Shown here: positions 1,309 through 22,122 of the stretch, piece by piece
Position numbering within the stretch: position 1 is the first letter of the stretch
How the letters are laid out: every line of letters begins with the position of its first letter
Origin: Jannaschia maritima
GTDB taxonomy: Bacteria; Pseudomonadota; Alphaproteobacteria; Rhodobacterales; Rhodobacteraceae
Reading direction: 5' to 3'
Length of the DNA stretch: 64,000 nucleotides
Assembly (NCBI RefSeq): GCF_030973515.1
Contig: NZ_JARGZA010000008.1
Coordinates: forward strand, 62,001-126,000
The notes under the pieces: generated by a model
Told to the model about the DNA's origin: nothing
Database searches by the model: none
What the model saw: only the letters and a program-made list of their open reading frames with translations
Made by a program: the position numbers and the translations under genes

Positions 1309-1328
1309 TTGTAACCATCCGGTTACAA
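1309..1328. promoter_or_regulatory. Regulon operator site 1 (inverted repeat upstream of ABC importer)
   Basis: Perfect dyad: TTGTAACC (1309-1316), spacer ATCC, GGTTACAA (1321-1328). It ends 16 bp before the ATG of the ABC solute-binding protein and just ahead of its GGGAGG ribosome site, so a bound protein would block the promoter or transcription start. It shares the core GTAACC-N4-GGTTAC with five other sites between 11.9 and 21.4 kb. The cognate regulator is inferred to be the TetR protein at 21436-22122. Confidence 0.75.
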
Positions 1329-1344
1329 CAAACGGGAGGACGAC

Positions 1345-2595
1345 ATGATCCGGATTCTTACGACGACGGTGGCGCTGACCGCGGCCCCCTTCGCGGCCTT
1401 CGCGGACGGCCATTCGGGCGACGTGGAAGTGCTGCACTGGTGGACGTCCGGCGGCGAGGCCGCGGCGTTGAACGTCCTGAAGGAAGATCTGGAAGGGCAG
1501 GGCATCGGTTGGACCGACATGCCCGTCGCGGGCGGCGGCGGCGAGCAGGCGATGACTGTGCTGCGCGCGCGCGTGACCGCCGGCAACGCGCCGACCGCGG
1601 TGCAGGCCCTGGGCTTCGACATCCTCGACTGGGCCGACCAGGGCGCGCTGGCCGACCTGAACGCGGTCGCCGCGGAACAGGGCTGGGACGACGTGGTGCC
1701 CGAGGCGCTGAAGGCGTTCGCCAAGTCGGACGGCCAATGGGTGTCCGCGCCGGTCAACGTCCATTCGACCAATTGGGTCTGGGCCAACACCGCGGTGCTG
1801 GAGGAGAACGGCATCGAGATCCCCACGACCTGGGAGGAGTTCACCGCCGCCGTCGAGACCTTGAAGGCCGCCGGCATCACCCCCATCGCCCATGGCGGGC
1901 AGGCGTGGCAGGACGCGACCGTGTTCGACGCGGTCGCCATGTCGACCGGCGGGCCGGAGTTCTACGAGGCCGCGTTCATCGACCTCGATCCCGAGGTCCT
2001 GGGCTCGGACACGATGCGCGAGGCGTTCGACCGGATGGCGTTCATCCGAGAGAACGTGGACGACAACTTCTCCGGCCGGGACTGGAACCTGGCGACGGCC
2101 ATGGTCATCAACGGCGAGGCCGGGTTCCAGATGATGGGCGACTGGGCCAAGGGCGAGTTCGTGAACGCGGGCCTGACCGCGGGCGAGGACTTCGCCTGCT
2201 TCCGGTTCCCGGGCACGCAGGATCAGGTCACGTTCAACGCCGACCAGTTCATGATGTTCGACCAGGACGGCGAGGTGTCCCCGGAGCAGGCGGCCCTGGC
2301 GATGGCGATCCTGTCTCCGGAGTTCCAGTCGGCCTTCAACGTCGTGAAGGGGTCCGCGCCGGCGCGCACGGACGTGTCCGACGAGGCGTTCGACGCCTGC
2401 GGCAAGAAGGCGATGGCCGATCTGGCTGCGGCCAACGAGTCGGGCAACCTGTTCGGCTCGATGGCGCACGGCCATGCGGCGCCCGCCGCGGTGAAGAACG
2501 CCATGTTCGACGTCATCACGGCCCACTTCAACGGCGAGTTCGATAGCGAGACCGCCGTCGAGGAGATGGTGACCGCCGTCGAGATCGCCCAGTGA
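1345..2595 (+). CDS. ABC transporter substrate-binding protein, glucose/mannose (GtsA) type
   Basis: A 416-aa periplasmic family 1 solute-binding protein. A signal peptide is visible (residues 1-20, cleavage after AFA). The mature N-terminus, [17 protein letters not shown], and [19 protein letters not shown] match the glucose/mannose-binding branch (GtsA-like) closely. It would deliver a hexose or related polyol/glycoside to the permeases that follow. The ATG at 1345 has GGGAGG five bases upstream. It is the first gene of the unit SBP-permease-permease-ATPase-GMC oxidoreductase, under operator site 1. The GMC and CoA-type enzymes of the regulon suggest that the real ligand may not be plain glucose. 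Confidence 0.88.
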
Positions 2596-2602
2596 TCCAC
2601 GT

Positions 2603-2626
2603 CGGGGCGTCCTTCGGGGCGCCCCG
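2603..2626 (+). promoter_or_regulatory. Intercistronic mRNA hairpin with UUCG tetraloop
   Basis: A ten-pair stem, CGGGGCGTCC / GGGCGCCCCG (one G-U wobble), closes a C(UUCG)G tetraloop at 2613-2616. It lies between the solute-binding protein stop and the permease start and has no T run. Such hairpins after the first gene of ABC operons protect the upstream mRNA, giving excess binding protein over membrane components. That role is inferred from position and structure. Confidence 0.65.
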
Positions 2627-2644
2627 CCTTCCGGGGGGAACGCC

Positions 2645-4452: not shown

Positions 4453-4455
4453 CCC

Positions 4456-5568
4456 ATGGGCTTTCTCGACATCGACAACGCGACCAAGAGCTATGGCGCC
4501 GTGGAGGTGCTGCACAACGTCGACATCTCCGTCCAGGAGGGGGAGTTCCTGGTCCTGGTCGGACCGTCGGGCTGCGGGAAGTCCACGCTGCTGAACATGA
4601 TCGCGGGGCTGGAGGACATCACCTCGGGCGAGATCTCGATCAAGGGGCGCACCATGAACGGGGTGCACCCGTCCAAACGCAACATCGCAATGGTGTTCCA
4701 GTCCTACGCCCTCTACCCGAACATGTCGGTGGCGCAGAACATCACCTTCGGGTTGGAGATGCACGGCACCCCCAAGGCGGAGCGGCAGGCCGCGCTGGGG
4801 AAGGTGGCCAAGCTCCTGCAGATCGAGCCCCTGCTGGACCGCAAGCCCGGCGCGCTGTCGGGCGGGCAGCGGCAGCGGGTCGCGATGGGCCGGGCCCTGG
4901 TGCGCGACCCGGACGTGTTTCTGTTCGACGAACCGTTGTCCAACCTGGACGCCAAGCTGCGCGTCGACATGCGCACCGAGATCAAAAAGCTGCATCAGAC
5001 GCTGGGCACGACCATCGTGTACGTCACCCACGACCAGATCGAGGCGATGACCCTGTCCACGCGGATCGCAGTGATGAACGGAGGCTACGTGCAACAGCTG
5101 GGCACGCCAAAGGAGATCTACGACGACCCGGCGAACCTGTTCGTGGCGGCCTTCATGGGGTCGCCATCGATGAACCTGCTGCCCGCGACCGTGCGGGTGG
5201 CGGACGGGCGCGTCGCGGCCGAGGTCGACGCGCCCGGCGGGCCCGTGTCGCTGGCCCTGACGCGGGGGGCGGACGCCCTGCGGGCGCGGGACGGGCGGCG
5301 GATCGTGCTGGGCATCCGACCGGAGGCGATCACCGATCCCGACGGGGCCGACCGCGGGTCGAACGCCCTGGAACGGATCGAGGCACGCATCGACGTGGTG
5401 GAGCCGTCGGGCGCGGACACCTTCGTCACGCTGGCGCTGGGGGGGCGGGACTGCATCGCCCGTCTGCGCGCGGATGCCGACGTGCGCGCGGGCGAGACGG
5501 TGCCCCTGACGGTGAACATGGAGAAGGCGACGGCCTTCGACCCGGACACGGAGATGCGGATCGGCTGA
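4456..5568 (+). CDS. ugpC: ABC transporter ATP-binding protein, MalK/UgpC family
   Basis: A 370-aa ATPase with Walker A GPSGCGKST (about 35-43), signature LSGGQRQRV, Walker B VFLFDEP, D-loop SNLDAKLR and switch histidine in YVTHDQIEA. A C-terminal TOBE/regulatory domain begins near residue 240. It energises the two permeases encoded just upstream. The symbol follows the usual family name for MalK-like CUT1 ATPases and does not imply glycerol-3-phosphate as substrate. It is followed 33 bases later by the GMC oxidoreductase gene in the same unit. Confidence 0.92.
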   Translation: MGFLDIDNATKSYGAVEVLHNVDISVQEGEFLVLVGPSGCGKSTLLNMIAGLEDITSGEISIKGRTMNGVHPSKRNIAMVFQSYALYPNMSVAQNITFGLEMHGTPKAERQAALGKVAKLLQIEPLLDRKPGALSGGQRQRVAMGRALVRDPDVFLFDEPLSNLDAKLRVDMRTEIKKLHQTLGTTIVYVTHDQIEAMTLSTRIAVMNGGYVQQLGTPKEIYDDPANLFVAAFMGSPSMNLLPATVRVADGRVAAEVDAPGGPVSLALTRGADALRARDGRRIVLGIRPEAITDPDGADRGSNALERIEARIDVVEPSGADTFVTLALGGRDCIARLRADADVRAGETVPLTVNMEKATAFDPDTEMRIG

Positions 5569-5601: not shown

Positions 5602-7200
5602 GTGACCGAATACGACCACATCGTCGTGGGCGGCGGATCGGCGGGCTGCGTCCTGGCCGCGCGCCTGTCGGAGGAGCCCGACGTCAGCGTGCTGTTGCTG
5701 GAGGCCGGCCCGAGGGACCGCAACCCCCTGTATCACATGCCCGCGGGCTTCGCGAAGATGACGAAGGGGCTGGGGTCGTGGGGCTGGCAGACGGTGCCGC
5801 AGCGCCACCTGGGCGGGCGGCGGCTGAACTATACGCAGGCGAAGGTAATCGGCGGCGGGTCGTCGATCAACGCGCAGATCTACACCCGGGGGCATGCGGG
5901 GGACTACGACGCCTGGGCCGCGGCGGGATGCGAGGGCTGGAGCTACCGGGAGGTGCTGCCCTATTTCCGGCGGTCGGAAGGGAACGAACGGTTCTCGAAC
6001 GCCTATCATTCGGGGACGGGGCCGCTGGGGGTTTCGATGCCCCGCGGGGCCCTGCCCATTTGCGATGCGTTCCTGCGGGCCGCCCAGGACTGGGGGATGC
6101 CCTACAACCCCGACTTCAACGGGGTGCGGCAGGCGGGGTGCGGGTTCTATCAGCTGACGCAGCGCGACGCGCGACGCAGCTCCGCGGCGCGGGCCTTCCT
6201 TGTCCCCGCGGAGGGCCGGGCGAACCTGACCGTGCGCACGGGCGTCGCCGTCCGCCGCGTGATGGTGGAGGGGCGCCGCGCGGTGGGGGTCGAGACGGCG
6301 GACGGCCCCGTTCGCGCCGGGCGCGGGGTGGTCCTGGCGGCGGGGGCCATCGGCTCGCCCTGGCTGCTGATGCGGTCGGGCATCGGTCCCGCGGACCATC
6401 TGCGGCAAAGGGGCGTGGCCGTCGTCCACGACCTGCCGGGCGTGGGCGAGAACCTGCAGGACCACCTGGACCTGTGCACCATCGCGGAATGCACGGGGGC
6501 GCACACCTATGACGGGATGGATCGCTGGGACCGGGCCGCGCGGGCTGGGCTGCAATACCTGTTGACCCGGACCGGCCCCGTGACCGCGTCGCTGTTCGAG
6601 ACGGGGGGGTTCTGGTACGCGGAGGACGGCGCCCCGTCGCCCGACATCCAGTTCCACCTGGGCCAGGGGTCGGGGATCGAGAAGGGGATCGAGGCACTGT
6701 CGGGGCACGGGGTCACGCTGAACTCCGCCTATCTGCGGCCACGGTCGCGGGGGACGGTCCGGTTGGATGCGGACCCCGACGCCCCGCCCCTGATCGACCC
6801 GAACTATTGGGCGGATCCGCACGACCGCGCCATGTCCCTGCGCGGGCTGGAGATGGCGCGCGAGATCATGGCCCAGCCCGCCCTGGCCCCCTTCGTGCGG
6901 CGCGAGGTCCTGCCCGGCGCCGGGGCGTCGGAACGGGAGGTGATGGAGTATGCCGTTTGCGCCGCCAAGACCGACCACCACCCTGCGGGGACATGCCGGA
7001 TGGGGGTGGACGACGCGGCGGTCGTGGACCCCGCGCTGCGGGTGCGGGGGATCGAGGGGCTTCGGGTCTGCGACGCCAGCGTGATGCCCCGGGTGCCGTC
7101 GTCCAACACCAACGCGCCCACCCTGGCCGTGGGCGAGAAGGGGGCCGACCTGATCCGGGGGCTGGAGCCGCTGCCCGCCGCGGTGGTCCCGCCCAACTGA
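5602..7200 (+). CDS. GMC family oxidoreductase (choline-dehydrogenase-like), copy 1
   Basis: A 532-aa FAD flavoprotein that oxidises an alcohol. The dinucleotide site GGGSAG is at residues 10-15, and GGGSSINAQIYTRG is the second GMC signature. Near the C-terminus, DHHPAGTCRMG and SNTNAPT supply the His and Asn expected at the active site. The GTG start has GGGGGG upstream. It is the last gene of the importer operon, so it probably acts on the imported compound. It is clearly paralogous to the GMC enzyme at 18098-19705, which shares the same regulator site family. The actual alcohol is unknown. Confidence 0.88.
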   Translation: MTEYDHIVVGGGSAGCVLAARLSEEPDVSVLLLEAGPRDRNPLYHMPAGFAKMTKGLGSWGWQTVPQRHLGGRRLNYTQAKVIGGGSSINAQIYTRGHAGDYDAWAAAGCEGWSYREVLPYFRRSEGNERFSNAYHSGTGPLGVSMPRGALPICDAFLRAAQDWGMPYNPDFNGVRQAGCGFYQLTQRDARRSSAARAFLVPAEGRANLTVRTGVAVRRVMVEGRRAVGVETADGPVRAGRGVVLAAGAIGSPWLLMRSGIGPADHLRQRGVAVVHDLPGVGENLQDHLDLCTIAECTGAHTYDGMDRWDRAARAGLQYLLTRTGPVTASLFETGGFWYAEDGAPSPDIQFHLGQGSGIEKGIEALSGHGVTLNSAYLRPRSRGTVRLDADPDAPPLIDPNYWADPHDRAMSLRGLEMAREIMAQPALAPFVRREVLPGAGASEREVMEYAVCAAKTDHHPAGTCRMGVDDAAVVDPALRVRGIEGLRVCDASVMPRVPSSNTNAPTLAVGEKGADLIRGLEPLPAAVVPPN

Positions 7201-7597: not shown

Positions 7598-8023
7598 TCA
7601 GGCCGGGTCGAAGCCCAACTCGGCCAGCGCGGTGGCGACGCATTCGGCGTCCTGGTGGCCCGATGCGCCGGACGCGCCCATGCCGCCAACCAGCGTGCCG
7701 TCGAGGCGGATGGGCTGCCCGCCCTCCCAGGCCAGGAGGTCGGTGCGGCTGGACAGGCCGCCCGCCAGGGCGGGGTCGCGCATCCGTTCCATGAAGGCCA
7801 GGGTCGTCTTGCCCAGCGTGGTCGTCACGGCCTTGTCGGTGGCCATGCGCAGCGTCGTGGGGCGCACGCCGTCGGGCCGGGCCGCGGCGATCACGTCGCC
7901 GTTCGGGTCCACCACGGCGACGGCCACGGACCAGCCCCGCGCGCGGGCGTGACGCAGGGCGGCGGCGACGAGCGCCGCGGCGGCGTCGTAGGTGACGGTC
8001 GGGGGGGCGTGGGTCAGGTCCAT
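7598..8023 (-). CDS. HbpS/GlcG family heme-binding-like protein
   Basis: A 141-aa single-domain protein of the GlcG/HbpS (DUF336) family. Recognisable parts are WSVAVAVVDPNGDVIAAARPDG, the lysine-threonine helix ATDKAVTTTLGKTT, and the glycine-rich end GTLVGGMGASGASGHQDAECV. Members bind heme, cobalamin or small carbonyl compounds and often accompany alcohol or glycolate oxidation genes; the role here is unproven. The ATG at 8023 is one base after the upstream TIM-barrel stop. It is the last gene of the five-gene minus-strand operon that starts at 11927. Confidence 0.82.
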   Translation of the reverse strand: MDLTHAPPTVTYDAAAALVAAALRHARARGWSVAVAVVDPNGDVIAAARPDGVRPTTLRMATDKAVTTTLGKTTLAFMERMRDPALAGGLSSRTDLLAWEGGQPIRLDGTLVGGMGASGASGHQDAECVATALAELGFDPA

Positions 8024-8024: not shown

Positions 8025-8849
8025 TCAGCACCCTGGCAGGCGTTCGACGATCGTGTCGAGCACATGGCCGGGATCCGCGGCCCACCAGCGACGCGAGAAC
8101 ACCTCCACCTCCACCGGGCCGGTGTAGCCCGCGCCTTCGGTGGCGGCGCGGATGGCGGGGATGTCGGCGACGCCGTCGCCCATCATGCCCCGGTCGAGCA
8201 GCATGTCCGACGTGTCGCGCATCCAGTCGCACAGGTGCAGACCCGCGATGCGCCCGCCCGCGGCGGCGCAGGACGCGGCGAGGGTTCCGTCCCACCAGAC
8301 GTGATAGACGTCCACCGCGATCCCCAGGTCCGGCACGCCCGATGCCTCGCACACCGACAGGGCGTCGGCGATCGTGAAGATCACCGTGCGGTTCCCCCCG
8401 AACATCGGGTTCAGCGGCTCCAGCACCAGGCGCACGCCCGCGCCGCCCGCGTGCTCCGCCAGGCCGGCCAGGCGGTCCGCCAGGCGCGCGCGGCTGGCCT
8501 GCAGGCCGACGGTGCCCGTCTCCGTCCCGCCGGTGACGACGGTCAGCACGGGCGCCCCCAGGGCGGCCGCGTCGTCGACGGCGGCCCGCAGGTCGTCGTC
8601 GGACGCGGCGTCCGGGCCGGTGAGATAGGGGGTGCGGCACAGCCCGTCGACGCGCAGGCCCGCGGCGCGCGCGCGCTCGCCCACGGCCCGCGCGCGGCCC
8701 GCCAGTTCGCCCCGCCAGAAGACGATGCCGCCGAAGCCGCGTCCGGCGCAGGCGTCGATCACGCGCTCGACCGGCCAGCCCGCGCCGTGGCCGGGCAGGT
8801 TGTGCCCCAGCGTCGCGGTGTTCAGCGCCAGCCGGGTGCGGGCGATCAC
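8025..8849 (-). CDS. Sugar phosphate isomerase/epimerase family (TIM barrel) protein
   Basis: A 274-aa xylose-isomerase-like TIM barrel. The metal-binding acidic and histidine residues of the family are visible: RLVLEPLNP, IAVDVYHVWWD, HLCDWMRD and the final PVEVEVFSRRWW. It probably isomerises or epimerises a keto sugar or hydroxy acid. The GTG start is chosen because it overlaps the DUF993 stop (GTGA), the same coupling seen elsewhere in this operon. The reaction is not deducible from sequence. Confidence 0.82.
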   Translation of the reverse strand: MIARTRLALNTATLGHNLPGHGAGWPVERVIDACAGRGFGGIVFWRGELAGRARAVGERARAAGLRVDGLCRTPYLTGPDAASDDDLRAAVDDAAALGAPVLTVVTGGTETGTVGLQASRARLADRLAGLAEHAGGAGVRLVLEPLNPMFGGNRTVIFTIADALSVCEASGVPDLGIAVDVYHVWWDGTLAASCAAAGGRIAGLHLCDWMRDTSDMLLDRGMMGDGVADIPAIRAATEGAGYTGPVEVEVFSRRWWAADPGHVLDTIVERLPGC

Positions 8850-9982
8850 AGCCCGTGCATCCGCAGGAGGCGGTTCATCCGGTCCACCGCGAGGTCGGGA
8901 TCGGCCAGGAGCCCGCAGGCATCGGCCATGCGGAACGCGTCGGCGAAGTAGGGCAGGGGCCGCTTGCCCTGCGCGCCGTCGATCATGACGAAATGGTCCT
9001 GGTGTCCGTTCAGCCAGGCCAGGAACACGACGCCCGTCTTGTAGAACCGCGTGGGCGCGCGGAACACGTGCCGGGCCAGGGGCACGGTGGGGTCCAGCGT
9101 CGCGCGGAAGCCCGCCACGTCGCCCCGGCCCAGTTGATCCACGGCCCGTCCGACCGCGACGGCCAGCGGATCGAAGATCCCCAGGAGCGCGTGGCTGTGG
9201 CCTTCGCCGTCGCCCTGCATCAGCTCGGGGTAGTTGAAGTCGTCGCCTGTATACATCCTGACGCCCGCGGGCAGGCGGCGGCGCAGCGCGACTTCCTTGT
9301 CCGCGTCTAGGAGGCTGATCTTGATGCCGTCGACCTTGGCCCTGTTCGCCTCGATGATGCCGACCACGGTGTCGAGCGCGGTTCCGAAATCGTCCGTGCC
9401 CCAATAGCCCGCCAGCGCGGGATCGAACATCGCGCCCAGCCAGTGCAGGATGACGGGACGGTCGCATCCGGCCAGGACGTCGCCGTAGAGCGCGGCGTAG
9501 TCGTCGGGGGACGTGGCGACGCGGGCCAGGGCGCGCGACGCCATCAGGACGATGCGGCCGTCCGCCGCCTGGATCGCCTCCACCTGTTCGGCATATGCGC
9601 GGCGCACGTCGTCGGTGGTCCGCGCCTCGGCGGGGTCCAGGTGGTCCGTGCCGCAGCCGTTGAACACCAGCGCGTCGGGCAGTTCCGCCCGGGTGCGGCG
9701 GATCAGCTCCAGCGCCTGCGGCCAGCCGAGCCCCATGCCGCGCTGCGCGGTGTCCATCGCCTCCGCGATGCCCAGGCCCAGGCCGTGCAGGTGGCGGCGG
9801 AAGGCCATCGTCGCGTCCCAGTCGATCGCGCGGATGTCGTCGGCGAACGGGTCGGCGACCACGTGCGCGGCGGAAAAGCAGGTCCGCGCGGGGTCGGGGC
9901 CCAGCGGGGTGGGCGGGATCGGCGTGCCCGTCAGCGCATGGGGGGACAGGGTGCCGGTGGCGTCGGGAAGGGCGATTTGCAT
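8846..9982 (-). CDS. DUF993 family protein (dihydrodipicolinate-synthase-like TIM barrel)
   Basis: A 378-aa DUF993 protein, distantly related to DHDPS-type class I aldolases. Visible features are SAAHVVADPFADD near the N-terminus, KVDGIKISLLDADKE (a possible Schiff-base lysine region, KIS) and the C-terminal part GQRKRPLP-like GAQGKRPLPYFADAFRM. It sits directly before a TIM-barrel isomerase with a GTGA overlap. An aldol cleavage or related step on a sugar-derived intermediate is plausible, but no member is known to me with an assigned reaction. The ATG at 9982 follows a 50-bp gap after the SDR gene. Confidence 0.78.
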   Translation of the reverse strand: MQIALPDATGTLSPHALTGTPIPPTPLGPDPARTCFSAAHVVADPFADDIRAIDWDATMAFRRHLHGLGLGIAEAMDTAQRGMGLGWPQALELIRRTRAELPDALVFNGCGTDHLDPAEARTTDDVRRAYAEQVEAIQAADGRIVLMASRALARVATSPDDYAALYGDVLAGCDRPVILHWLGAMFDPALAGYWGTDDFGTALDTVVGIIEANRAKVDGIKISLLDADKEVALRRRLPAGVRMYTGDDFNYPELMQGDGEGHSHALLGIFDPLAVAVGRAVDQLGRGDVAGFRATLDPTVPLARHVFRAPTRFYKTGVVFLAWLNGHQDHFVMIDGAQGKRPLPYFADAFRMADACGLLADPDLAVDRMNRLLRMHGL

Positions 9983-10032: not shown

Positions 10033-10785
10033 TCAGAAGCGCGGCACGAGCATACCGCCGTCGGCATGGATCACCTGGCCCGTCGTGTAGGGCAGGCCGC
10101 CGGTGGCCAGGGTGGCGACGATCGCGCCGACCTCCCCCGGTCGGCCCACGCGGGGGATCAGCGTCAGGCCGTCGCGGGCGCGATCCTCGTAATCCGCGAT
10201 GACGGGGGCGGTCATGTCGGTGGCGATCAGGCCGGGGCGGACGTCGTAGACGGGGATCCCTTCGGGTCCCAGCCGCGCGGCCCAGGCCTGCGTCGCCATC
10301 GCGGCGGCGGCCTTCGACGCGCAGTATTCGGACCGGGGCACCGCCACGGCGGTGGCGTTGGCGGAGGTGACGGTGACGATGCAGCGCGGGCCCGTGCGCC
10401 CGATCATGCGCCGGGCGGCCGCCTGCGTCAGGAAGAACACCGCCTTGGCGTTGACCGTCAGGCACCGGTCCCAGGATGCCTCCCCCACGTCGAGGGGGTC
10501 GCCCCGGGACGCCACGCCCACGCCCGCGTTGTTGACCAGGACGGTCAAGGGGCCGAGCGTCGCTTCGAGGTCGTCCAGCGCGGGGTCGTGGGCGGACAGG
10601 TCGGCCACGTCGAAGGGTAGGGGCATCGCGCGGGCCCCCAGGGCGGCCACGGCCGTGCAGGCCTCCGCGACGTCGGCGAGGGTCAGGCCGTTGAGCGCGA
10701 CGGCGAACCCCTTCGCGGCCAGGGCCTCGGCGCAGGCGCGCCCGATGCCGCGGCCCGCGCCCGTGACCAGGGCCACGCCCGTCAC
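10033..10785 (-). CDS. SDR family oxidoreductase (FabG-like)
   Basis: A 250-aa classical short-chain dehydrogenase. The NAD(P) site TGAGRGIGRA is at residues 8-17, NNAG follows, and the catalytic Ser and Tyr-x3-Lys lie in VTSANATAVAVPRS and EYCASK. It would interconvert a secondary alcohol and a ketone, possibly a hydroxyacyl or sugar-derived intermediate. The GTG start overlaps the acyl-CoA dehydrogenase stop (GTGA). It is the second gene of the operon under operator site 2. Confidence 0.88.
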   Translation of the reverse strand: MTGVALVTGAGRGIGRACAEALAAKGFAVALNGLTLADVAEACTAVAALGARAMPLPFDVADLSAHDPALDDLEATLGPLTVLVNNAGVGVASRGDPLDVGEASWDRCLTVNAKAVFFLTQAAARRMIGRTGPRCIVTVTSANATAVAVPRSEYCASKAAAAMATQAWAARLGPEGIPVYDVRPGLIATDMTAPVIADYEDRARDGLTLIPRVGRPGEVGAIVATLATGGLPYTTGQVIHADGGMLVPRF

Positions 10786-11938: not shown

Positions 11939-11958
11939 ACGTAACCATTCGGTTACTT
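11939..11958. promoter_or_regulatory. Regulon operator site 2 (acyl-CoA dehydrogenase operon)
   Basis: The core GTAACC (11941-11946), ATTC, GGTTAC (11951-11956) is a perfect dyad; the outer pair is AC/TT. It ends 11-13 bp before the minus-strand ATG at 11927. It overlaps the -10 element of the minus-strand promoter, so binding should repress. Confidence 0.75.
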
Positions 11959-11995: not shown

Positions 11996-12025
11996 TGGAC
12001 AGCCGTTCGTGCGGGCCGGTAAGTA
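11996..12025 (+). promoter_or_regulatory. Predicted promoter of the aldo/keto reductase gene
   Basis: -35 TGGACA (11996-12001) and -10 TAAGTA (12020-12025) are 18 bp apart. The -10 hexamer is identical to that of the divergent promoter and again overlaps the operator. Confidence 0.45.
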
Positions 12026-12040
12026 ACCAGGCAGATACTT
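12021..12040. promoter_or_regulatory. Regulon operator site 3 (aldo/keto reductase)
   Basis: AAGTAACC (12021-12028), AGGC, AGATACTT (12033-12040). The left half is consensus and the right half matches at six of eight positions. It ends 15 bp before the ATG at 12056, the same geometry as sites 1 and 4. Confidence 0.65.
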
Positions 12041-13088: not shown

Positions 13089-13862
13089 TCAGTCGGTCCC
13101 CTTCCGGAAGTCGGGGGCGCGCTTGGCGCGGAAGGCGGACAAGCCCTCGGCCAGGTCGTCTGAGCGGGCGGCGAGGCTGCCGGCGAGGCTTTCGACGACG
13201 CGGCCGACCTCCTCGCCCTCCGCGGCGGCGATCATCATCTTGGCCAGCTCGGTCGCGCGGGGGCCACGGCACAGGACGCGGGCGGCGGCGTCTTCCGCGG
13301 CCCGCATGGCCCCGCCGGTGTCGACCACCGCGTCCACCAGCCCCAGGGCCAGGGCGTCCGTGGCCGTGAACACCTCGCCGAACAGGGCCATCCGGCGGAC
13401 CACCTGGGGGCCGAAGCGGCGGACCGCGCGCTGCGTGCCGGACCAGCCCGGTATGATGCCCAGGCCCGTTTCGGGCTGCCCGACCTTCACGTGGGCCTCC
13501 GCGATGCGCAGGTCGGCGCAGGCGGCCAGCTCCAGCCCGCCGCCGAGCGCGTGGCCGTCCAAGACCGCGATCACCGGCTGCCGGAGGCGGGCCAGGGCGT
13601 CGAAGGCCGCGTGACCGTCGCGGACCCAGTGCCGCCCGAAGGCGTCGGCCCCTTCGCCGGACCACGCCTCGATGTCGCCGCCCGCGCAGAAGGCGCGGCC
13701 CTCGCCCGACAGGATCACGACGGCCGCGCCGGACCGCTCGATCTCGCGGGAGCGGAGCGCCAGTTCGTCCACCATCGCGACGTCGAGCGCGTTGAGCTTC
13801 TCGGGCCGGTCCAGGACCAGCCGCGCGACGCCCCCCTCGACCGACAGGCGGATCCGGCTCAT
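13089..13862 (-). CDS. Enoyl-CoA hydratase/isomerase family protein
   Basis: A 257-aa crotonase-fold protein. The oxyanion-hole segments are GRAFCAGGDI and DGHALGGGLELAACADLRIA; the catalytic Glu position is met in PETGLGIIPGWSGTQR. It would hydrate the enoyl-CoA made by the acyl-CoA dehydrogenase of the same regulon. The ATG at 13862 overlaps the CoA-transferase stop (ATGA). It is the second gene of a two-gene minus-strand unit. Confidence 0.88.
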   Translation of the reverse strand: MSRIRLSVEGGVARLVLDRPEKLNALDVAMVDELALRSREIERSGAAVVILSGEGRAFCAGGDIEAWSGEGADAFGRHWVRDGHAAFDALARLRQPVIAVLDGHALGGGLELAACADLRIAEAHVKVGQPETGLGIIPGWSGTQRAVRRFGPQVVRRMALFGEVFTATDALALGLVDAVVDTGGAMRAAEDAAARVLCRGPRATELAKMMIAAAEGEEVGRVVESLAGSLAARSDDLAEGLSAFRAKRAPDFRKGTD

Positions 13863-15439
13863 GGGGCCAGGCCGATCGGTTCGGGGCGGAACAGGGCGGC
13901 GTCCATCTCCCGCAGGTCGTGGGCGACGTGCAGGGGCGTGGCGGCCTGGTCCAGGACGTCGCCCTGCAGGTCGATGCCGGGCGCCACCTCCACCACCGTT
14001 AGGCCGTCGGGGCGCAACTCCATCACGCAGCGTTCGGTGACATAGGTGACCCGCTGGCCCTGGGCCACGGCGCGCGGGCCGCTGAAGGACACGTGGTCCA
14101 CCCGGGGGACGACCTTGGCGATCCGGCCCGGCGCGTCCAGCCTCAGGCGACCGTCCGCGACGTCCATCCTGGCCCCCGCCCCGAAGGTGCCCGAGAAGAC
14201 GATCCGCTTGGCGCGCGCGGTGATGTCCACGAACCCGCCCGCGCCCGCCGTGCGGTGGGGGGTGGCCTTCAAGCGGGACACGTTGACCGACCCGTCGGCC
14301 CCGATCTCGAGGAAGGACAGGAGCGAGCAGTCGAAGCCCCCGGCCTGGAAGTAGGCGAACTGGTGGGGCGAGGCGACGAAGGCCTCCGCGTTGGCGGAGC
14401 ACCCGAACTTGAAGTCCAGGAGCGGGATGCCCCCCACGGCGCCCTGCTCGATCACCCAGGTGACGTCGCCGTGGCGCCCTTCCTCCAGGAGGATGCGGGG
14501 GACGTTGGCGGACACGCCGAAGCCCACGTTGACGGCCCAGCCCTTGCGCATCTCGCGCGCGACGCGGCGCGCGATGACCTTCGAGACGCCGAACTCCATC
14601 CGCGCGAAGCCGTCGAGCGGGCGGATCAGCTCGCCCGATATGGCGGGGTCGTAGGGGGTGGCGGTGGTCTGAAGCTGGTCCGGTGCCTCGACCACGCAGT
14701 CGACCAGGATGCCGGGCACATGCACGTCCTTGGGGCGGATCGACCCGTCGGCCGCGACGCGGCGGACCTGCGCGATGACCAGCCCGCCCCGGTTGCGGGC
14801 GGCCAGCGCCATCTCCATCGCGCCCAGATACGCCCCCTCGTCCTCGAAGGACAGGTTGCCGCGCGTGTCGGACGTGGTGGCCCGGACGATGGCCACGTCG
14901 GGCGCGATCGCGGGGAAGTAGAGCCACGTCTCGCCGTCGAAGTCCTGCCGGCGCACGATGGGCGCGGCGCGCGCGGCGTCGTTCATGGCGCAGCCGTGGC
15001 CGCCCGGGCCTTCGGGATCGACGAAGGTGTCGAGGCCGACCTTGGTCAACACGCCGGGCCTGTGGGCCCCCGCTTCGCGTAACATGTCGAAGACGACGCC
15101 GGACGGGACGTTGTAGGCGGGGATCGCGTTCCCGGTGATCATTTGCCAGATCGCGGGCGGCTCGGCCTTCGTGGGGCCCGATGGATAGGACCCGCCGATG
15201 ATACGCGCCAGGCAGCCCGGCTTGGCGATGTGGTTGACCCCTTCGATGCCGAAGAAGTCGCCCGCAGCGATGGGATGGATGGTGGTCAGGTCGCGGGGAT
15301 GGGCTTCGGCGTCGAACCGCGCGCCGATCGCCGCCAGCACCGCGTCGGGGCAGCAAAGGCCCGAGGACGAGTTCACCGCCACCACCGCGCCGTCGGGGAT
15401 GCGGGCCACCGCGTCGGCCGCGCTCGTCTGCTTGGACAC
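13859..15439 (-). CDS. Acyl-CoA:acetate/3-ketoacid CoA-transferase, fused alpha-beta (YdiF/propionate CoA-transferase type)
   Basis: A 526-aa single-chain class I CoA-transferase. The N-terminal half begins with AVVAVNSSSGLCCPDAVLAA and the C-terminal half has WVIEQGAVGGIP, where the catalytic glutamate is expected. It loads CoA onto a carboxylate without ATP, feeding the enoyl-CoA hydratase and acyl-CoA dehydrogenase steps. The GTG at 15439 is chosen because GGAAGGAGG stands just upstream; a longer TTG frame would include that ribosome site. Operator site 4 ends 16 bp upstream of this start. Confidence 0.88.
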   Translation of the reverse strand: MSKQTSAADAVARIPDGAVVAVNSSSGLCCPDAVLAAIGARFDAEAHPRDLTTIHPIAAGDFFGIEGVNHIAKPGCLARIIGGSYPSGPTKAEPPAIWQMITGNAIPAYNVPSGVVFDMLREAGAHRPGVLTKVGLDTFVDPEGPGGHGCAMNDAARAAPIVRRQDFDGETWLYFPAIAPDVAIVRATTSDTRGNLSFEDEGAYLGAMEMALAARNRGGLVIAQVRRVAADGSIRPKDVHVPGILVDCVVEAPDQLQTTATPYDPAISGELIRPLDGFARMEFGVSKVIARRVAREMRKGWAVNVGFGVSANVPRILLEEGRHGDVTWVIEQGAVGGIPLLDFKFGCSANAEAFVASPHQFAYFQAGGFDCSLLSFLEIGADGSVNVSRLKATPHRTAGAGGFVDITARAKRIVFSGTFGAGARMDVADGRLRLDAPGRIAKVVPRVDHVSFSGPRAVAQGQRVTYVTERCVMELRPDGLTVVEVAPGIDLQGDVLDQAATPLHVAHDLREMDAALFRPEPIGLAP

Positions 15440-15455: not shown

Positions 15456-15475
15456 AAGTAACCAATCGGTTATCT
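15456..15475. promoter_or_regulatory. Regulon operator site 4 (CoA-transferase operon)
   Basis: AAGTAACC (15456-15463), AATC, GGTTATCT (15468-15475). The right half matches the consensus at six of eight positions. It is 16 bp upstream of the minus-strand GTG at 15439, matching the spacing of sites 1 and 3. Confidence 0.7.
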
Positions 15476-15533: not shown

Positions 15534-15553
15534 AAGTAACCGGGCGGTTACGA
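15534..15553. promoter_or_regulatory. Regulon operator site 5 (second aldo/keto reductase)
   Basis: AAGTAACC (15534-15541), GGGC, GGTTACGA (15546-15553). The central 16 bp are a perfect dyad. It lies only 7 bp before the ATG at 15561, so the mRNA may be leaderless or nearly so. Confidence 0.7.
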
Positions 15554-15560: not shown

Positions 15561-16379
15561 ATGAGCATCTACTACACCAAGTCGTTCCAGCGGGCCTTCG
15601 GCACGTTCCCCCTGACCGGCGACACGGCGCGCCGGGCGATCGAGACGGCGGCGGAGGTCGGGTACCGCGCCTTCGACACCGCGCAGATGTACGGCAACGA
15701 GGCCGAGACGGGCGACGCCCTGCGCGCGACCGGCCTGGCGCGGGGGGACCTGTGCGTCACGACGAAGGTGCATCCGGACAACTTCGCCGCGGACCGGTTC
15801 GTGCCATCCGTGGAACGCAGCCTGACGGCGCTGAAGCTGGACCGCGTGGACGTCCTGCTGTTGCACTGGCCGCCCGCGGACGGGGTCGTGGCACCATCGC
15901 TGGAGCTGTTGCAGGGGGCCAGGGACGCGGGTCTGGCCGACCACGTCGGCGTGTCGAACTATACCGTCGCGATGATGCGGGAGGCGGCGGCCGCGATCGA
16001 CGCGCCCCTGGTGACGAACCAGGTGGAGTTCCATCCGCTGCTGAACCAGGACGTCCTTCTGGCCGGGTCGGCGGAGGTGGGAATCCCCCTGTCGTCCTAT
16101 TCCTCCGTCGCGCGGGGCGCGGTGTTCGAGCATGCCGACTTCGCCGCCATCGGCGCGGCCTACGACAAGTCGGCGGGGCAGGTGGTGCTGCGCTGGATCC
16201 TGCAGAAGGGCGTGTCTGTCAACACGATGTCCACGAACCCCGACAACATCCGCGCCAACTTCGACGTCATGAATTTCACACTGTCCAACGTGGACATGGC
16301 CCGGATCGAGCGGTTGACCCGGACCGGGCACCGTGTCGTGGGGTCGGGCCAGGTGCCCTGGGCGCCGGACTGGGACTGA
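15561..16379 (+). CDS. Aldo/keto reductase (2,5-diketo-D-gluconate reductase type)
   Basis: A 272-aa AKR. The tetrad is present: Asp and Tyr in FDTAQMYGNE, Lys in VTTKVHPD and His in LLHWPP. GVSNYTVAMM is the usual substrate-loop signature. Proteins of this branch reduce diketo sugars and small aldehydes with NADPH. No good ribosome site precedes the ATG at 15561, and the operator dyad ends seven bases upstream. It is divergent from the CoA-transferase operon. Confidence 0.85.
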   Translation: MSIYYTKSFQRAFGTFPLTGDTARRAIETAAEVGYRAFDTAQMYGNEAETGDALRATGLARGDLCVTTKVHPDNFAADRFVPSVERSLTALKLDRVDVLLLHWPPADGVVAPSLELLQGARDAGLADHVGVSNYTVAMMREAAAAIDAPLVTNQVEFHPLLNQDVLLAGSAEVGIPLSSYSSVARGAVFEHADFAAIGAAYDKSAGQVVLRWILQKGVSVNTMSTNPDNIRANFDVMNFTLSNVDMARIERLTRTGHRVVGSGQVPWAPDWD

Positions 16380-17946: not shown

Positions 17947-17952
17947 AGCGAT

Positions 17953-17981
17953 GCCCCCGACGCACGCGGTGGGTCGGGGGC
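17953..17981 (+). terminator. Hairpin after the 325-aa protein gene
   Basis: Perfect 9-bp arms, GCCCCCGAC (17953-17961) and GTCGGGGGC (17973-17981), with an 11-base loop, begin seven bases after the stop. There is no T tract. It probably ends transcription between convergent genes. Confidence 0.45.
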
Positions 17982-18097
17982 TAGGCTCGGGGCCGGTCGG
18001 AGGGGCCGGGCCCGCGACGCCCGTACCGGGATGCCCCTCGCCGTATCGCCTTCCCGCCGGATCGAGAGCTCGGGGCGGCCTCCTCGGACCCGACCCT

Positions 18098-19705
18098 TCA
18101 GCGGTTGCCGCGGATCAGGTCGGCGGCCTTCTCGGCGATCATGATGGTGGGGGCGTTGGTGTTCGAGCCGACGAGGCTGGGCATCACGGAGCTGTCGCAG
18201 ATGCGCAGGCCATCGATGCCGATGACGCGGAGCTGGGGGTCCACCACGGCCATGTCGTCGGTGCCCATCTTGCAGGTGCCGGTCGGGTGGTAGGACGTGC
18301 GCCCGTACCGGCGGGCATAGGCGGCGTAGTCGCCCGCCTCGCGGATCGCCCCGTCGGGGTGGCGGATGGCGCGGACGTGCCGGGCCATCGCGGGCTGCGA
18401 GAAGATCTCGACGCTTCGGCGCACGCCTTCGGCGGAGATCGCCAGGTCGTCGGGGTGGCCCAGGAAGTCGGGATCGACCACCACGGGGGCGGCCGGGTCG
18501 TCCGAGCGCAGCCGCACCGTGCCGCGGGCCTTGGGGCGGGCGTTGTAGCTGTTGAGCGTGACGCCCGAGCTGCCCGGCCGGACGGAGGGGACCCCGGCCT
18601 CCGCCCCCGCGCCGGCGAGGAAGTGGAACTGAAGGTCCGGCACGGCGTCCGGGTCGTCCGCGCCCCCCGAATACCAGAACGCGCCCCCTTCCACGACGTT
18701 CGAGGTCACGGGCCCCGATCCGAACGCGTAGTATTGGATGCCCGCCAGGGCCGCGTTCCACCACGACCTGTAGCGGTCGAGCGACTGGTGGCCGGTCAGC
18801 TCGGCCACGATGTCGATGCCGAAATGGTCCTGAAGGTTCCGGCCCACGCCGGGCAGGTCGGCCCGCACCGCGATGCCGTGCCCCGCCAGGTGGGCGGCGG
18901 GGCCCAGGCCGGACAGCATCATGAGCTTCGGCGATCCCAGGGCGCCGGCGGTCAGGATCACCTCCGACGACGCGGCGAGGCTGCGGCGGGTGCGGCCGTC
19001 GAAGACCTCGACCCCCGTGGCGCGGCCGTTCGCGATCGCGACGCGCTCGATCAGGACGTCCGTCCGGACGGTCAGGTTGGCGCGCTCGCGGATGGGCTTG
19101 AGGTACGCGGTGGCCGCCGAGCAGCGCCGTCCGTCGCGCGTGGTGGTCTGGTACACGCCGCATCCCGCCTGCCGCGGCCCGTTGAAGTCGGGGTTGTACG
19201 GGATGCCCGCCTGCTGGCACGCCTGCACGTAGGCGCGCGTCATCGGCTGGGGCGAGTGGAGGTTCGACACCCCCAGCGGCCCCTCGGTGCCGTGCCAGTC
19301 GCCCGCGAGGAACGTGTTGCCCTCGGACCGCAGGAAGTAGTCGCGGACCTGGTCCCACCCCCATCCGGCGGCGCCTTCGTCCCGAGCCCATCGGTCGTAG
19401 TCGGACGGGTGGCCGCGGGTGTAGACCTGCGCGTTCACCGAGGACGACCCACCCAGGACGCGGCCCTGCGCATACGGGATCTCGCGGTCGTCCGCGTGCT
19501 TCTGGGGGACGGTCCGGAAGCCCCAGGTGAGCGGGCCGTCGGTCATCTTGGCGAAGCCCACCGGCATGTGGATCAGCGGATGGCCGTCGCGCGGCCCGGC
19601 CTCCAGCAGCAGGACGCGGCGGTCGGCGTCCTCCGTCAGGCGGTTGGCCAGCACGCAGCCGGCGGACCCTGCGCCGACGACGATGGTGTCGTAGCCTTCG
19701 GCCAC
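18098..19705 (-). CDS. GMC family oxidoreductase (choline-dehydrogenase-like), copy 2
   Basis: A 535-aa FAD enzyme, paralogue of the 5602-7200 protein. The FAD site GAGSAG is at residues 11-16, followed by GGSSSVNAQVYTRG; the active-site region SYHPTGTCKMG and GSNTNAPT close the protein. It oxidises an alcohol to an aldehyde. The GTG start lies one base after the aldehyde dehydrogenase stop, so the two are co-translated and plausibly act in sequence, alcohol to acid. Having two GMC enzymes in one regulon suggests two hydroxyl groups or two chain lengths. Confidence 0.9.
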   Translation of the reverse strand: MAEGYDTIVVGAGSAGCVLANRLTEDADRRVLLLEAGPRDGHPLIHMPVGFAKMTDGPLTWGFRTVPQKHADDREIPYAQGRVLGGSSSVNAQVYTRGHPSDYDRWARDEGAAGWGWDQVRDYFLRSEGNTFLAGDWHGTEGPLGVSNLHSPQPMTRAYVQACQQAGIPYNPDFNGPRQAGCGVYQTTTRDGRRCSAATAYLKPIRERANLTVRTDVLIERVAIANGRATGVEVFDGRTRRSLAASSEVILTAGALGSPKLMMLSGLGPAAHLAGHGIAVRADLPGVGRNLQDHFGIDIVAELTGHQSLDRYRSWWNAALAGIQYYAFGSGPVTSNVVEGGAFWYSGGADDPDAVPDLQFHFLAGAGAEAGVPSVRPGSSGVTLNSYNARPKARGTVRLRSDDPAAPVVVDPDFLGHPDDLAISAEGVRRSVEIFSQPAMARHVRAIRHPDGAIREAGDYAAYARRYGRTSYHPTGTCKMGTDDMAVVDPQLRVIGIDGLRICDSSVMPSLVGSNTNAPTIMIAEKAADLIRGNR

Positions 19706-19706
19706 C

Positions 19707-21209
19707 TCAGTCGATCCAGTGCTGCCGGGGGCCGAACGCGATGTGGACGGACTTGACCTGGGTGTATTCCTCTACGCCCATCATGCCCGCCTCGCGGCCC
19801 CAGCCGGACGCCTTGAAGCCGCCGATCGGAAGCTCCGGCCCGCCGGCCAGGGTCGTGTTGACCCAGAACCGTCCCGCCCGCACGCGGCGCGACACGGCCA
19901 TCGCGGTGTCGATGTCCTTGGACCAGACGGAGGCGGCCAGGCCGTATTCGGTGTCGTTCGCCATCTCGACCGCCTCGTCCAGGGTGTCGAAGGGCAGGAT
20001 CGTCAGGACGGGGCCGAAGATCTCGTCCCGCGCGATGGTCATGTCGGGGGTGACGTCCGTGAAGACCGTGGGCGCGATGAAGCGGCCCCGGCCCAGATCC
20101 ATCGCCGTGCCGCCCATTGCGAGGGTGGCCCCCTCGGCCTTGCCCTTCTCGATGTAGTCCAGGATGGCGCGGTTCTGCGCTTCGGTGGTGATGGCGCCCG
20201 CCTGCGTCGCCTCGTCGAGGGGGTCGCCGGTGCGGATGCGGGCCAGCTTGTCGGCGACCTTCCGGGCGAACGCGTCGGCGACGGCGCGTTCCACGATCAG
20301 GCGCGATCCCGACACGCAGCACTGGCCGGAGTTGAACGCGATGCCGAACGCGACCCCGTCCGCGGCGTCGTCGAGATCCGCGTCGGCGAAGACGATCTGC
20401 GGGTTCTTGCCCCCCAGCTCCAGCCCCAGCTTCTTGAAGTTCGACCGAGCCGACGCCTCCACCACGGCGCGGCCCGTGCGGGTGGAGCCGGTGAAGGACA
20501 CCATGTCGACGTCCCGATGCTCCAGCATCGCCTGGCCCACGGTCGGTCCGGTGCCCGTGACCACGTTGAAAACGCCCGCGGGCAGCCCGGCCGCCCGGAG
20601 GATGTCGGCCAGGATCAGCGTGGTGGCGGAGGTGAACTCGGACGGCTTGGCGACGACGGCGTTGCCGGAGGCGAGGATGTAGGGGACCCGCTCGCACAGG
20701 ATCAGGAACGGGAAGTTCCAGGGCGTGACGACGCCTACGACGCCGACGGGCTCGCGCATGACGAGGGACAGGGCGTCGTCGCCGACATTGTTGAACGTGT
20801 CGCCGTGCAGCGTGCGCGCGAGGCCCGCGGCCAGCTCGAACATGCCGACGCAGCCCGACACCTCGCCCCGCGCCTGTGCGATGGGCTTGCCGTTCTCCAG
20901 CGTTTCCCAATACGCGATCTCGTCCACGCGCTCGCGCAGCAGGGCGGCCGCGCGCAGGAGCACGGCGGCGCGGTCCGCCCCGCCCAGGCCCGCCCAGCGG
21001 CGGTCGTCGAAGGCCGCGCGCGCCGCCGCCACGGCGTCGTCCACGTCGGCGGGCGTGCAGGCGACCGTCCGCGTCACGGGGACGTCGTGGGCGGGGGAAT
21101 GGCGGACGAACACCTCCCGCTCGCCCGCCGGCACGTCGCGGCCATCCACGTGGAAGCCAAAGGTCCGCGGCTCGGACGGGAGGGATAGGCGGGTTGTCTG
21201 CTGGTCCAT
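19707..21209 (-). CDS. Aldehyde dehydrogenase (NAD-dependent)
   Basis: A 500-aa class 1/2-type aldehyde dehydrogenase. VVTPWNFPF binds the cofactor, LELGGKNPQIVF carries the general-base Glu, and FNSGQCCVSGSRL carries the nucleophilic Cys. It would oxidise the aldehyde made by the adjacent GMC enzyme to the carboxylate used by the CoA-transferase. The start is set at the ATG at 21209 (MDQQTTRLSLPSEP); upstream codons in the same frame look non-coding. Its predicted minus-strand promoter at 21355-21384 overlaps operator site 6. Confidence 0.9.
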   Translation of the reverse strand: MDQQTTRLSLPSEPRTFGFHVDGRDVPAGEREVFVRHSPAHDVPVTRTVACTPADVDDAVAAARAAFDDRRWAGLGGADRAAVLLRAAALLRERVDEIAYWETLENGKPIAQARGEVSGCVGMFELAAGLARTLHGDTFNNVGDDALSLVMREPVGVVGVVTPWNFPFLILCERVPYILASGNAVVAKPSEFTSATTLILADILRAAGLPAGVFNVVTGTGPTVGQAMLEHRDVDMVSFTGSTRTGRAVVEASARSNFKKLGLELGGKNPQIVFADADLDDAADGVAFGIAFNSGQCCVSGSRLIVERAVADAFARKVADKLARIRTGDPLDEATQAGAITTEAQNRAILDYIEKGKAEGATLAMGGTAMDLGRGRFIAPTVFTDVTPDMTIARDEIFGPVLTILPFDTLDEAVEMANDTEYGLAASVWSKDIDTAMAVSRRVRAGRFWVNTTLAGGPELPIGGFKASGWGREAGMMGVEEYTQVKSVHIAFGPRQHWID

Positions 21210-21343
21210 GGAAGGCTCCCGGGCGTCGATGTCGGTATGGGAAGGCGGGTCAGGCGCGCCGCGGGACCGTCCGCCGTTCCACGAGCGTCTCGGTGAACGG
21301 CATGACACCCCTTCCGCCGCGCACGGGGGGACGGCTCCGCCAT

Positions 21344-21363
21344 AACGCACTGGGTGGTTACTT
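21344..21363. promoter_or_regulatory. Regulon operator site 6 (between aldehyde dehydrogenase and tetR)
   Basis: The right half GGTTACTT (21356-21363) is consensus. The left half AACGCACT (21344-21351) matches at four of eight positions. On the minus strand a perfect TTGACA (21384-21379) stands 18 bp from TAACCA within the site, a plausible promoter for the aldehyde dehydrogenase-GMC unit. The site is also 72 bp upstream of the tetR start, so autoregulation is possible. Confidence 0.55.
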
Positions 21364-21435
21364 GCTGTTTTCCGCAGGTGTCAAGTCTGCTATGCGTCGG
21401 GACGCGACCCCGCCGGTCGGGAGGGCAGGACAGCC

Positions 21436-22122
21436 ATGGACGGATCGCCGCAACCACGCGCGCGCGACGCGGACGCCACGCGCCGCCGCATCCTGAACGC
21501 CGCGAAGGAGGAGTTCGCCCGGGTGGGTCTCGGCGGGGCGCGGGTCGATCTGATCGCCGAGCGCGCCGAAGCCAACAAGCGCATGATCTATCACTATTTC
21601 GGGTCGAAGGAGGCGCTGTTCCGCGCCGTCCTGGAGGAGGCGTATCTCGCGATCCGTTCGGCCGAGCGCGCGCTGGACCTGGAGCATCTGCCCCCGCTGG
21701 CGGCGATGGAGCAGCTCGTCCGGTTCACGTGGCGGTACTATCTGGAGAACCCGGAGTTCATCCGGCTGGTGAACAGCGAGAACCTGCACGGCGCGCGGCA
21801 CATCGAGGGATCCGTGCCCCTGCACGACGCGTCGCGCGGGCTGACGGAACTGACGGGCGCGATCCTGCGGCGGGGCGTCGCCGAGGGGTCCATGCGGCCG
21901 GGTATCGATCCGGTTCAGTTGAACATCACGATCGCGGCGATCGGCTACTACTATCTGACGAACCGCCACACGGGCGAGTACCTGTTCGAACGCCCGTTCA
22001 TGACGCAGGCGGCCCTGGACGAGCGCATCGCCTTCAACGTGGAGACGATCCTGCGCCTGGTTCGGGCGGACGCGGCCGGTCAGCCCCGCGGGACCGGCGA
22101 CGCGGCCACGACGGACGCGTAG
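21436..22122 (+). CDS. TetR/AcrR family transcriptional regulator (proposed regulator of the GTAACC regulon)
   Basis: A 228-aa TetR protein. The N-terminal helix-turn-helix covers about residues 15-60 (RRRILNAAKEEFARVG, then VDLIAERAEANKRMIYHYF). The C-terminal ligand domain includes FTWRYYLENPEFIRLVNSEN. TetR proteins usually repress and are released by a pathway ligand. It is divergent from the aldehyde dehydrogenase gene with an operator between them, and it is the only regulator gene in the first 22 kb. Its 3' end overlaps the convergent glycosyltransferase by 43 bp. Binding to the GTAACC dyad is inferred, not shown. Confidence 0.85.
   Translation: MDGSPQPRARDADATRRRILNAAKEEFARVGLGGARVDLIAERAEANKRMIYHYFGSKEALFRAVLEEAYLAIRSAERALDLEHLPPLAAMEQLVRFTWRYYLENPEFIRLVNSENLHGARHIEGSVPLHDASRGLTELTGAILRRGVAEGSMRPGIDPVQLNITIAAIGYYYLTNRHTGEYLFERPFMTQAALDERIAFNVETILRLVRADAAGQPRGTGDAATTDA

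Follow-up and report, generated by a model that had tools for sequence, protein, structure and literature searches.

How are sixteen catabolic and import genes, spread over several transcription units, placed under common control, and which compound might they degrade? This question is raised by a block located at 1.3-22.1 kb of a 64,000-nt window (the whole stretch of DNA analyzed here) from Jannaschia maritima (GCF_030973515.1, NZ_JARGZA010000008.1, forward-strand positions 62,001 to 126,000). Based on open reading frames (ORFs) and their Pfam and NCBIfam matches, the block holds these sixteen genes in six units, together with tetR, which codes for a TetR-family regulator. Comparison with related loci supports a recurrent operator, GTAACC-N4-GGTTAC, its position at the promoters of these units and its association with the tetR gene. 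As judged from these sequence comparisons, it is very likely that TetR reads the predicted operators and controls the six units.

The predicted operators precede units whose membership was deduced from gene spacing. Operator 1 (1309..1328, perfect core 1311-1326) lies upstream of a plus-strand unit (1345-7200) encoding a binding protein, two permeases, an ATPase and a first GMC oxidoreductase (GMC1), and operator 2 (11939..11958, perfect core 11941-11956) upstream of a minus-strand unit (11927-7598) encoding an acyl-CoA dehydrogenase (CoA, coenzyme A), a short-chain dehydrogenase/reductase (SDR), a DUF993 protein, a sugar isomerase and an HbpS-like protein. Operator 3 (12021..12040, core 12023-12038, two mismatches) is found upstream of aldo-keto reductase 1 (AKR1; 12056, plus strand), operator 4 (15456..15475, core 15458-15473, one mismatch) upstream of the CoA-transferase and enoyl-CoA hydratase unit (minus strand, 15439-13089) and operator 5 (15534..15553, perfect core 15536-15551) upstream of AKR2 (15561, plus strand). 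Operator 6 (core 21346-21361), of the asymmetric form GCACY-N4-RGTTAC, is located in the gap between the aldehyde dehydrogenase and GMC2 unit (minus strand, 21209-18098) and tetR (21436, plus strand); AKR1, AKR2 and tetR are separate units. The original prediction claimed three perfect cores, which are found at 1311, 11941 and 15536, and placed sites 1, 3 and 4 at 15-16 bp from the start codons, a distance which is right when counted from the 20-bp form of the operator.

Within the 3.67-Mb genome searched, the perfect GTAACC-N4-GGTTAC occurs only three times, always at promoters of the block, in line with the non-random placement which had been anticipated. At the one-mismatch level, three further places appear, namely 15458 and a pair on contig C6 (5903 and 5935). 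Counting looser sites was rejected as evidence, since eight sites with up to three mismatches were found in the window versus 7.3 expected by chance, and 29 places with up to two mismatches in the whole genome versus 49 for a reversed control pattern; only perfect sites and position thus carry signal. A matrix was also built from sites in relatives and, because its training sites were found with the window consensus, matrix counts lean towards this consensus. The six reported sites have the six highest matrix scores in the window (24.4, 24.1, 23.5, 16.9, 14.1 and 2.2), well clear of the site ranked next (-7.1). The description of six near-palindromic sites at catabolic promoters is confirmed, with the reservation that it passes over the four mismatches of the sixth site to the palindrome.

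An alignment scan of species genomes with the CoA-transferase gave at least 80 related loci, mostly from Rhodobacterales, Rhizobiales and Acetobacteraceae. The counts cover the loci listed; those pooled per gene (mismatch, matrix, asymmetric, motif and 105-locus counts) combine these loci with further genome stretches and include a few genomes twice. The gene set recurs widely, often with another importer, and is not special to the J. maritima genome; loci of Rhodobacterales and Rhizobiales closely resemble each other in gene order, and Acetobacteraceae have reduced sets. As had been expected for orthologous clusters, the same operator is present at the matching promoters. The 80 listed loci alone contain 80 sites that are perfect or differ by one base, and 77 of these are found no more than 200 bp upstream of one of seven target genes, a space of about 4% of the bases; the reversed control pattern has three matches in the 1.5 Mb of these loci. 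With up to two mismatches, a site is found within 150 bp upstream of the acyl-CoA dehydrogenase in 59/64 cases, AKR1 in 54/63, the CoA-transferase in 59/94, AKR2 in 52/75 and the aldehyde dehydrogenase in 13/65, the reversed control giving at most three per gene. Genes inside operons are nearly devoid of such sites (GMC2 1/76, hydratase 2/76, SDR 1/67, DUF993 0/68, isomerase 0/67), which amounts to 4/354 inner genes versus 237/361 promoter-proximal genes; as the genomes are related by descent, a Fisher value for this contrast cannot be read as a probability. Matrix scores of at least 10 gave a similar distribution: 63/64 for the acyl-CoA dehydrogenase, 56/63 for AKR1, 89/94 for the CoA-transferase, 72/75 for AKR2, 20/65 for the aldehyde dehydrogenase and 12/39 for tetR, with 4/354 for inner genes (GMC2 three, SDR one). 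In Rhizobiales, the operator is often found only at the acyl-CoA dehydrogenase (up to two mismatches); in Acetobacteraceae, some loci lack it and most sites depart from it at two positions. Across 13 genomes, 11 perfect sites were found, nine of them in the cluster; at the one-mismatch level, four of these genomes (G000, G163, G031 and G140) exceed their own control and the other nine do not.

TetR (228 aa, 21436..22122, plus strand) consists of TetR_N (PF00440, 55.0 bits) and TetR_C_29 (PF17938, 128.8 bits) domains, both above gathering, which places it in the TetR/AcrR family. A Pfam and NCBIfam scan of 20 window ORFs, comprising the 18 block ORFs, a flanking glycosyltransferase and a match-less 90-aa ORF, bore out that it is the sole regulator gene of the block. 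It stays below the NCBIfam cut-offs of RutR (69.5 bits, cut-off 368), PsrA (Vibrio model, 31.0 versus 300), AcuR (29.4 versus 247) and BetI (35.6 versus 201.3). At E 1e-30, a homologue is encoded in 57 of the 248 genomes of the family, among which a close group of about 60-71% identity covers 20 genomes, J. maritima included and two being partial matches. Close CoA-transferases were found in 27/248 genomes and both proteins together in 19; the cut-offs were set at identity gaps, and CoA-transferase homologues at 58-62% and about 40%, probably other enzymes, were excluded.

Neighborhoods of up to 40 kb were analyzed around 17 close and four more distant TetR homologues. In 29 short loci of TetR homologues other than that of the window (L006-L034), four sites with at most one mismatch were found (L014, two in L023, L031), none of them more than about 75 bp away from the tetR match. 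The homologues of L023 and L031 are 49% and 42% identical to the J. maritima TetR and keep the helix NKRMLYHY. G179, in which TetR is 50% identical and has NKKM in place of NKRM along with further domain differences, has a related gene set devoid of canonical sites. Where the operator is expected, in the AKR2/SDR gap (position 29103 of the joined stretch, L070), it contains a palindrome with 15-bp arms and a different sequence, a possible case of co-change between TetR and operator. With exceptions, the operator is thus located at promoters linked to the regulator gene and conserved with it, as in a local TetR regulon. Collectively, promoter placement in relatives, near absence inside operons, co-occurrence and operators beside distant homologues support the prediction of one regulon under one TetR.

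Site 6, GCACTGGGTGGTTAC, deserves separate consideration as it fits a conserved asymmetric form. GCACY-N4-RGTTAC is found, in a single orientation, within 300 bp upstream of 22/39 tetR orthologues, versus 0.05 per set in shuffled sequence. The same form occurs within this distance of the acyl-CoA dehydrogenase (13/64), AKR1 (12/63), GMC2 (4/76), the aldehyde dehydrogenase (3/65), the CoA-transferase (2/94) and AKR2 (2/75), and is absent upstream of the hydratase (0/76), isomerase (0/67) and DUF993 (0/68); given its presence at other promoters, the form is not peculiar to tetR. In Rhizobium sp. 32-5/1, tetR is separated from the operon of a CUT2-type importer, and the asymmetric site is found at this operon rather than at tetR. 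Site 6 may therefore be what remains of the operator of an importer operon and would now act on the aldehyde dehydrogenase. A canonical site (up to two mismatches) is present at only 1/40 tetR genes, which does not support autoregulation of tetR through such a site.

How TetR would act can be addressed from promoter geometry. Among 52 acyl-CoA dehydrogenase promoters with a site, 46 occurrences of TTGAC were found 26-30 bp before the operator core. In the window, the core of operator 2 is preceded at 27 bp by TTGACG (minus strand, 11978-11983) and site 6 at 23 bp by TTGACA (minus strand, 21379-21384), the latter on the side of the aldehyde dehydrogenase unit. With a usual spacer, the -10 element of the acyl-CoA dehydrogenase promoter would abut or overlap the operator, so that a block of initiation by bound TetR is probably the natural reading at this promoter, and is assumed for the others. 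From these data, we infer that a TetR repressor would bind GTAACY-N4-RGTTAC, with A/T-rich flanks, at five places and the asymmetric variant at the sixth. Bound next to or over the probable -10 element of the acyl-CoA dehydrogenase promoter, and assumed to act alike at the others, it would prevent initiation and shut off the importer-GMC1, acyl-CoA dehydrogenase, AKR1, CoA-transferase, AKR2 and aldehyde dehydrogenase-GMC2 units, until a metabolite of the pathway, possibly a CoA thioester or a hydroxy acid, releases it.

The proteins of the block give indications on the nature of the substrate. The first unit encodes a CUT1-type solute-binding protein (1345..2595, SBP_bac_1), two permeases (2645-3571 and 3571-4452, BPD_transp_1), a UgpC/MalK-type ATPase (4456..5568; NF008653, 463 bits, above the cut-off of 432) and GMC1 (5602..7200, GMC_oxred_N and C), all on the plus strand. 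The nearest solved relative of the binding protein is 4r2b (590 bits over 390 residues), which presumably holds glucose, followed by binding proteins of ABC (ATP-binding cassette) sugar transporters; the NCBIfam glucose equivalog GlcS, at 66.6 bits, does not reach its cut-off of 500. Between GMC1 and the next gene, two imperfect copies with repeated GTACA motifs were seen by eye (7259-7540). On the minus strand follow the HbpS-like protein (7598..8023, PF03928), a sugar isomerase/epimerase-like TIM barrel (8025..8849, PF01261; relatives 3ju2 and 3qc0), the DUF993 protein (8846..9979, PF06187, 570 bits), which may be distantly related to dihydrodipicolinate synthase (DHDPS) and has a conserved GIK lysine, a 3-ketoacyl reductase-like SDR (10033..10785; NF009386, 322.6 bits, above the cut-off of 250) and the acyl-CoA dehydrogenase (10782..11927; Acyl-CoA_dh N, M and C domains, conserved YEG motif).

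AKR1 (12056..13069, plus strand, PF00248) has L-galactose dehydrogenases as closest solved relatives. The enoyl-CoA hydratase/isomerase family protein (13089..13862, PF00378, conserved LE and PE motifs) and the YdiF/FadX-type CoA-transferase (13859..15439, GTG start, PF01144; 2ahu, 342.5 bits) are encoded on the minus strand, and the DkgB-like AKR2 (15561..16379, PF00248; NF008377, 217 bits, below the cut-off of 327) on the plus strand. GMC2 (18098..19705, assigned by Pfam/NCBIfam) and the aldehyde dehydrogenase (19707..21209, PF00171, 568 bits), on the minus strand, complete the set. ORFs 16492-16761 and 16969-17943 have neither a Pfam or NCBIfam match nor an operator, and the surrounding 1.7 kb or so between AKR2 and GMC2 (16380-18097) looks like an insertion. 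The AKR2-GMC2 distance is at most about 125 bp in 8 of 10 relatives having both genes side by side.

Annotated relatives have a CUT2 importer, along with a zinc alcohol dehydrogenase, upstream of the aldehyde dehydrogenase and mostly adjoining tetR; often, a glycerate kinase follows the hydratase (including in the Sinorhizobium and Paracoccus clusters) and electron transfer flavoprotein genes follow the isomerase. In the window, searches with the CUT2 binding protein, the glycerate kinase and the zinc dehydrogenase gave no match. At E 1e-20, the CUT2 binding protein is absent from the J. maritima genome, and the same query matches 59/105 related loci. Glycerate kinase, absent from the window at E 1e-10, is present in 38/105 related loci when searched at E 1e-20 irrespective of identity, and an unlinked homologue (45%) is found at C33 of the J. 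maritima genome. J. maritima has instead an importer of the CUT1 type, preceded by a perfect operator of its own, and it seems from the sequence that one importer was exchanged for the other. Importer genes of the CUT1 kind adjoin the cluster in several relatives. A Dpp/Opp-type importer between aldehyde dehydrogenase and tetR was considered and rejected, as annotated plasmids show there a CUT2 importer with an ATPase of about 500 residues. In L162 (19607-28259), L165 (6487-12471) and L161 (19584-26418), the cluster is adjoined by a second module, which consists of a VOC protein, either GMC1 or a zinc dehydrogenase, and CUT1 or another ABC importer; a two-mismatch site precedes GMC1 in L162 and an asymmetric site the VOC gene in L161. 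The regulon may thus have a second uptake branch.

From these protein families, the cluster appears to import and burn a sugar-like compound; both the CUT1 and CUT2 binding proteins resemble sugar binders. A monosaccharide-sized polyhydroxy compound would be taken up by the ABC importer, the GMC enzymes would oxidize an alcohol and the aldehyde dehydrogenase an aldehyde, giving an acid. After transfer of CoA to this acid, the acyl-CoA dehydrogenase, the hydratase and the SDR (as 3-hydroxyacyl dehydrogenase) would perform beta-oxidation-like steps. Cleavage would come last, by DUF993 acting as a Schiff-base lyase, and a fragment would be dealt with by the isomerase. The GIK lysine of DUF993 is kept in at least 98% of 61 sequences, and we take GIK to be the lysine motif of DHDPS-type Schiff-base lyases; sequence matches are 4dnh and, weakly, DHDPS (E 0.4-0.5 over about 90 residues). 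The LE/PE motifs of the hydratase and the YEG motif of the acyl-CoA dehydrogenase are conserved in relatives and, like GIK, are presumably catalytic. This order of import, oxidations, CoA transfer, beta-oxidation-like steps and cleavage is proposed tentatively: the route outlined in the original prediction is reasonable from the protein families, from which alone its individual steps are deduced. An even more tentative proposal is a widespread alphaproteobacterial route for a monosaccharide-sized deoxy or polyhydroxy compound, the acid form of which would receive CoA from a glyceryl-CoA-like product and undergo beta-oxidation; the DUF993 lyase would replace a thiolase and one undescribed TetR would act with a fixed asymmetric operator at the importer promoter. 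Candidate substrates, none of which is chosen here, are deoxyribose/deoxyribonate, other deoxy-sugar acids, isosaccharinic acids, deoxy-inositols and 1,3-propanediol/3-hydroxypropionate.

Several observations weigh against a single TetR regulon. Two perfect sites in G002 (contig C9) and the one-mismatch pair on C6 of J. maritima (matrix scores 14.3 and 7.1) are outside the cluster, and rhizobial and some acetic acid bacterial loci have no site with up to two mismatches at several promoters. In G029, a close TetR (62%) occurs with the aldehyde dehydrogenase, GMC2, AKR2, CoA-transferase and hydratase, whose promoters have no such site. G125, G228 and G068 encode TetR, and the stretch analyzed there (only 13 kb for G068) does not contain the cluster, the CoA-transferase being on another contig in G125 and G068 and absent in G228. 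In addition, eight of the 27 genomes with a close CoA-transferase have no close TetR. Along with the near absence of a canonical site at tetR itself (1/40), the latter genomes and G029 would fit sites that coregulate the genes and are read by a regulator encoded elsewhere, TetR being merely a neighbor. This reading is very unlikely in view of the co-occurrence of TetR with the CoA-transferase (19/20), the operators adjoining the distant homologues of L023 and L031, the asymmetric site upstream of 22/39 tetR genes, and G179, whose NKKM-type TetR goes with a different palindrome. Chance matches in a GC-rich genome would account for the two- and three-mismatch counts, which do not exceed chance or control, and for a one-mismatch excess limited to 4/13 genomes; given the perfect sites, their positions and their conservation in the 80 listed loci, such an origin is hardly credible.

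The sign of the regulation and the chemistry are to be weighed separately. TetR could activate these promoters, or have a dual role at them, as a few TetR-family activators exist and site position alone cannot fix the sign; the other promoters, which have no shared TTGAC spacing (the best being AKR2, 8/43 at 15 bp), count against a uniform block of initiation and are uninformative here. At the acyl-CoA dehydrogenase promoter, the operator at -10 spacing after TTGAC is in a repressor position, which makes activation very unlikely and repression by TetR the preferred reading. Regarding chemistry, and not regulation, the absence of a thiolase among the 20 window ORFs scanned by Pfam and five Gluconobacter loci without matches for the hydratase and both AKRs indicate that the beta-oxidation reading is incomplete. 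The genes might instead serve two substrates or moieties, for instance of a glycoside or an acylated sugar, with the importers, AKRs, isomerase and DUF993 acting on the sugar and the CoA-transferase, acyl-CoA dehydrogenase and hydratase on the acyl part. The cluster contains or adjoins CUT1 and CUT2 importers, plus another ABC importer in S. meliloti, and the isomerase and DUF993 have sugar-type barrels among their relatives, which keeps such a division a serious minority possibility. DUF993, the isomerase and the SDR share the acyl-CoA dehydrogenase operon in most of the 80 listed loci having it, which speaks for one route.

Regarding the surroundings of the outlying sites, the perfect cores of G002 (L169, 6395 and 6422) are 27 bp apart, and the 14 kb analyzed there contain no gene of the cluster. 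The C6 pair (5903-5950, 32 bp apart) adjoins an ORF resembling, by eye, a peptide deformylase and an ORF with a helix-turn-helix-like end; these are perhaps the sites of another regulator, or an extra target.

Under the preferred reading of one TetR regulon, a single operator ties sixteen genes and their regulator across marine roseobacters, root-nodule bacteria and, with smaller sets, acetic acid bacteria. DUF993, of unknown function in Pfam, gains a metabolic setting and, as the cluster is present on pSymA of S. meliloti 1021 (locus L160), its substrate can be tested in a model strain.

The absence of a described pathway with this gene set, claimed at the outset, holds within the open-access literature searched, in which no paper on DUF993 was found. 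In the same literature, the titles listed for the operator words (with tetR) look unrelated, longer operator words retrieved no paper, and none of the papers listed for S. meliloti locus tags, guessed from position, deals with rhizobia. The nearest described analogue found is the CoA-bound catabolism of deoxyribonate proposed for Klebsiella michiganensis, which, in the part of the source available, proceeds by conversion of this sugar acid to a CoA thioester, C3 oxidation and cleavage with formation of glyceryl-CoA (Price et al., 2019; PMC6365646). According to the same text, the K. michiganensis cluster contains a CoA-transferase and a glycerate kinase, as do the Sinorhizobium and Paracoccus clusters, along with a CoA synthetase, a thiolase, a lactonase and MFS transporters (PMC6365646). 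The J. maritima cluster differs from it, as it has the CoA-transferase only, has no linked CoA synthetase or thiolase domain by Pfam among the 20 window ORFs, and adds the acyl-CoA dehydrogenase, hydratase, DUF993, isomerase, GMC enzymes and ABC importers. While the pathway is apparently undescribed within the literature searched, the regulon appears to be of a known kind: FabR, FadP, LiuQ, PsrA and RutR, as far as the accessible part of their description goes, likewise rely on one TetR protein with lineage-conserved sites before several operons, in the service of other pathways (PMC5343134).

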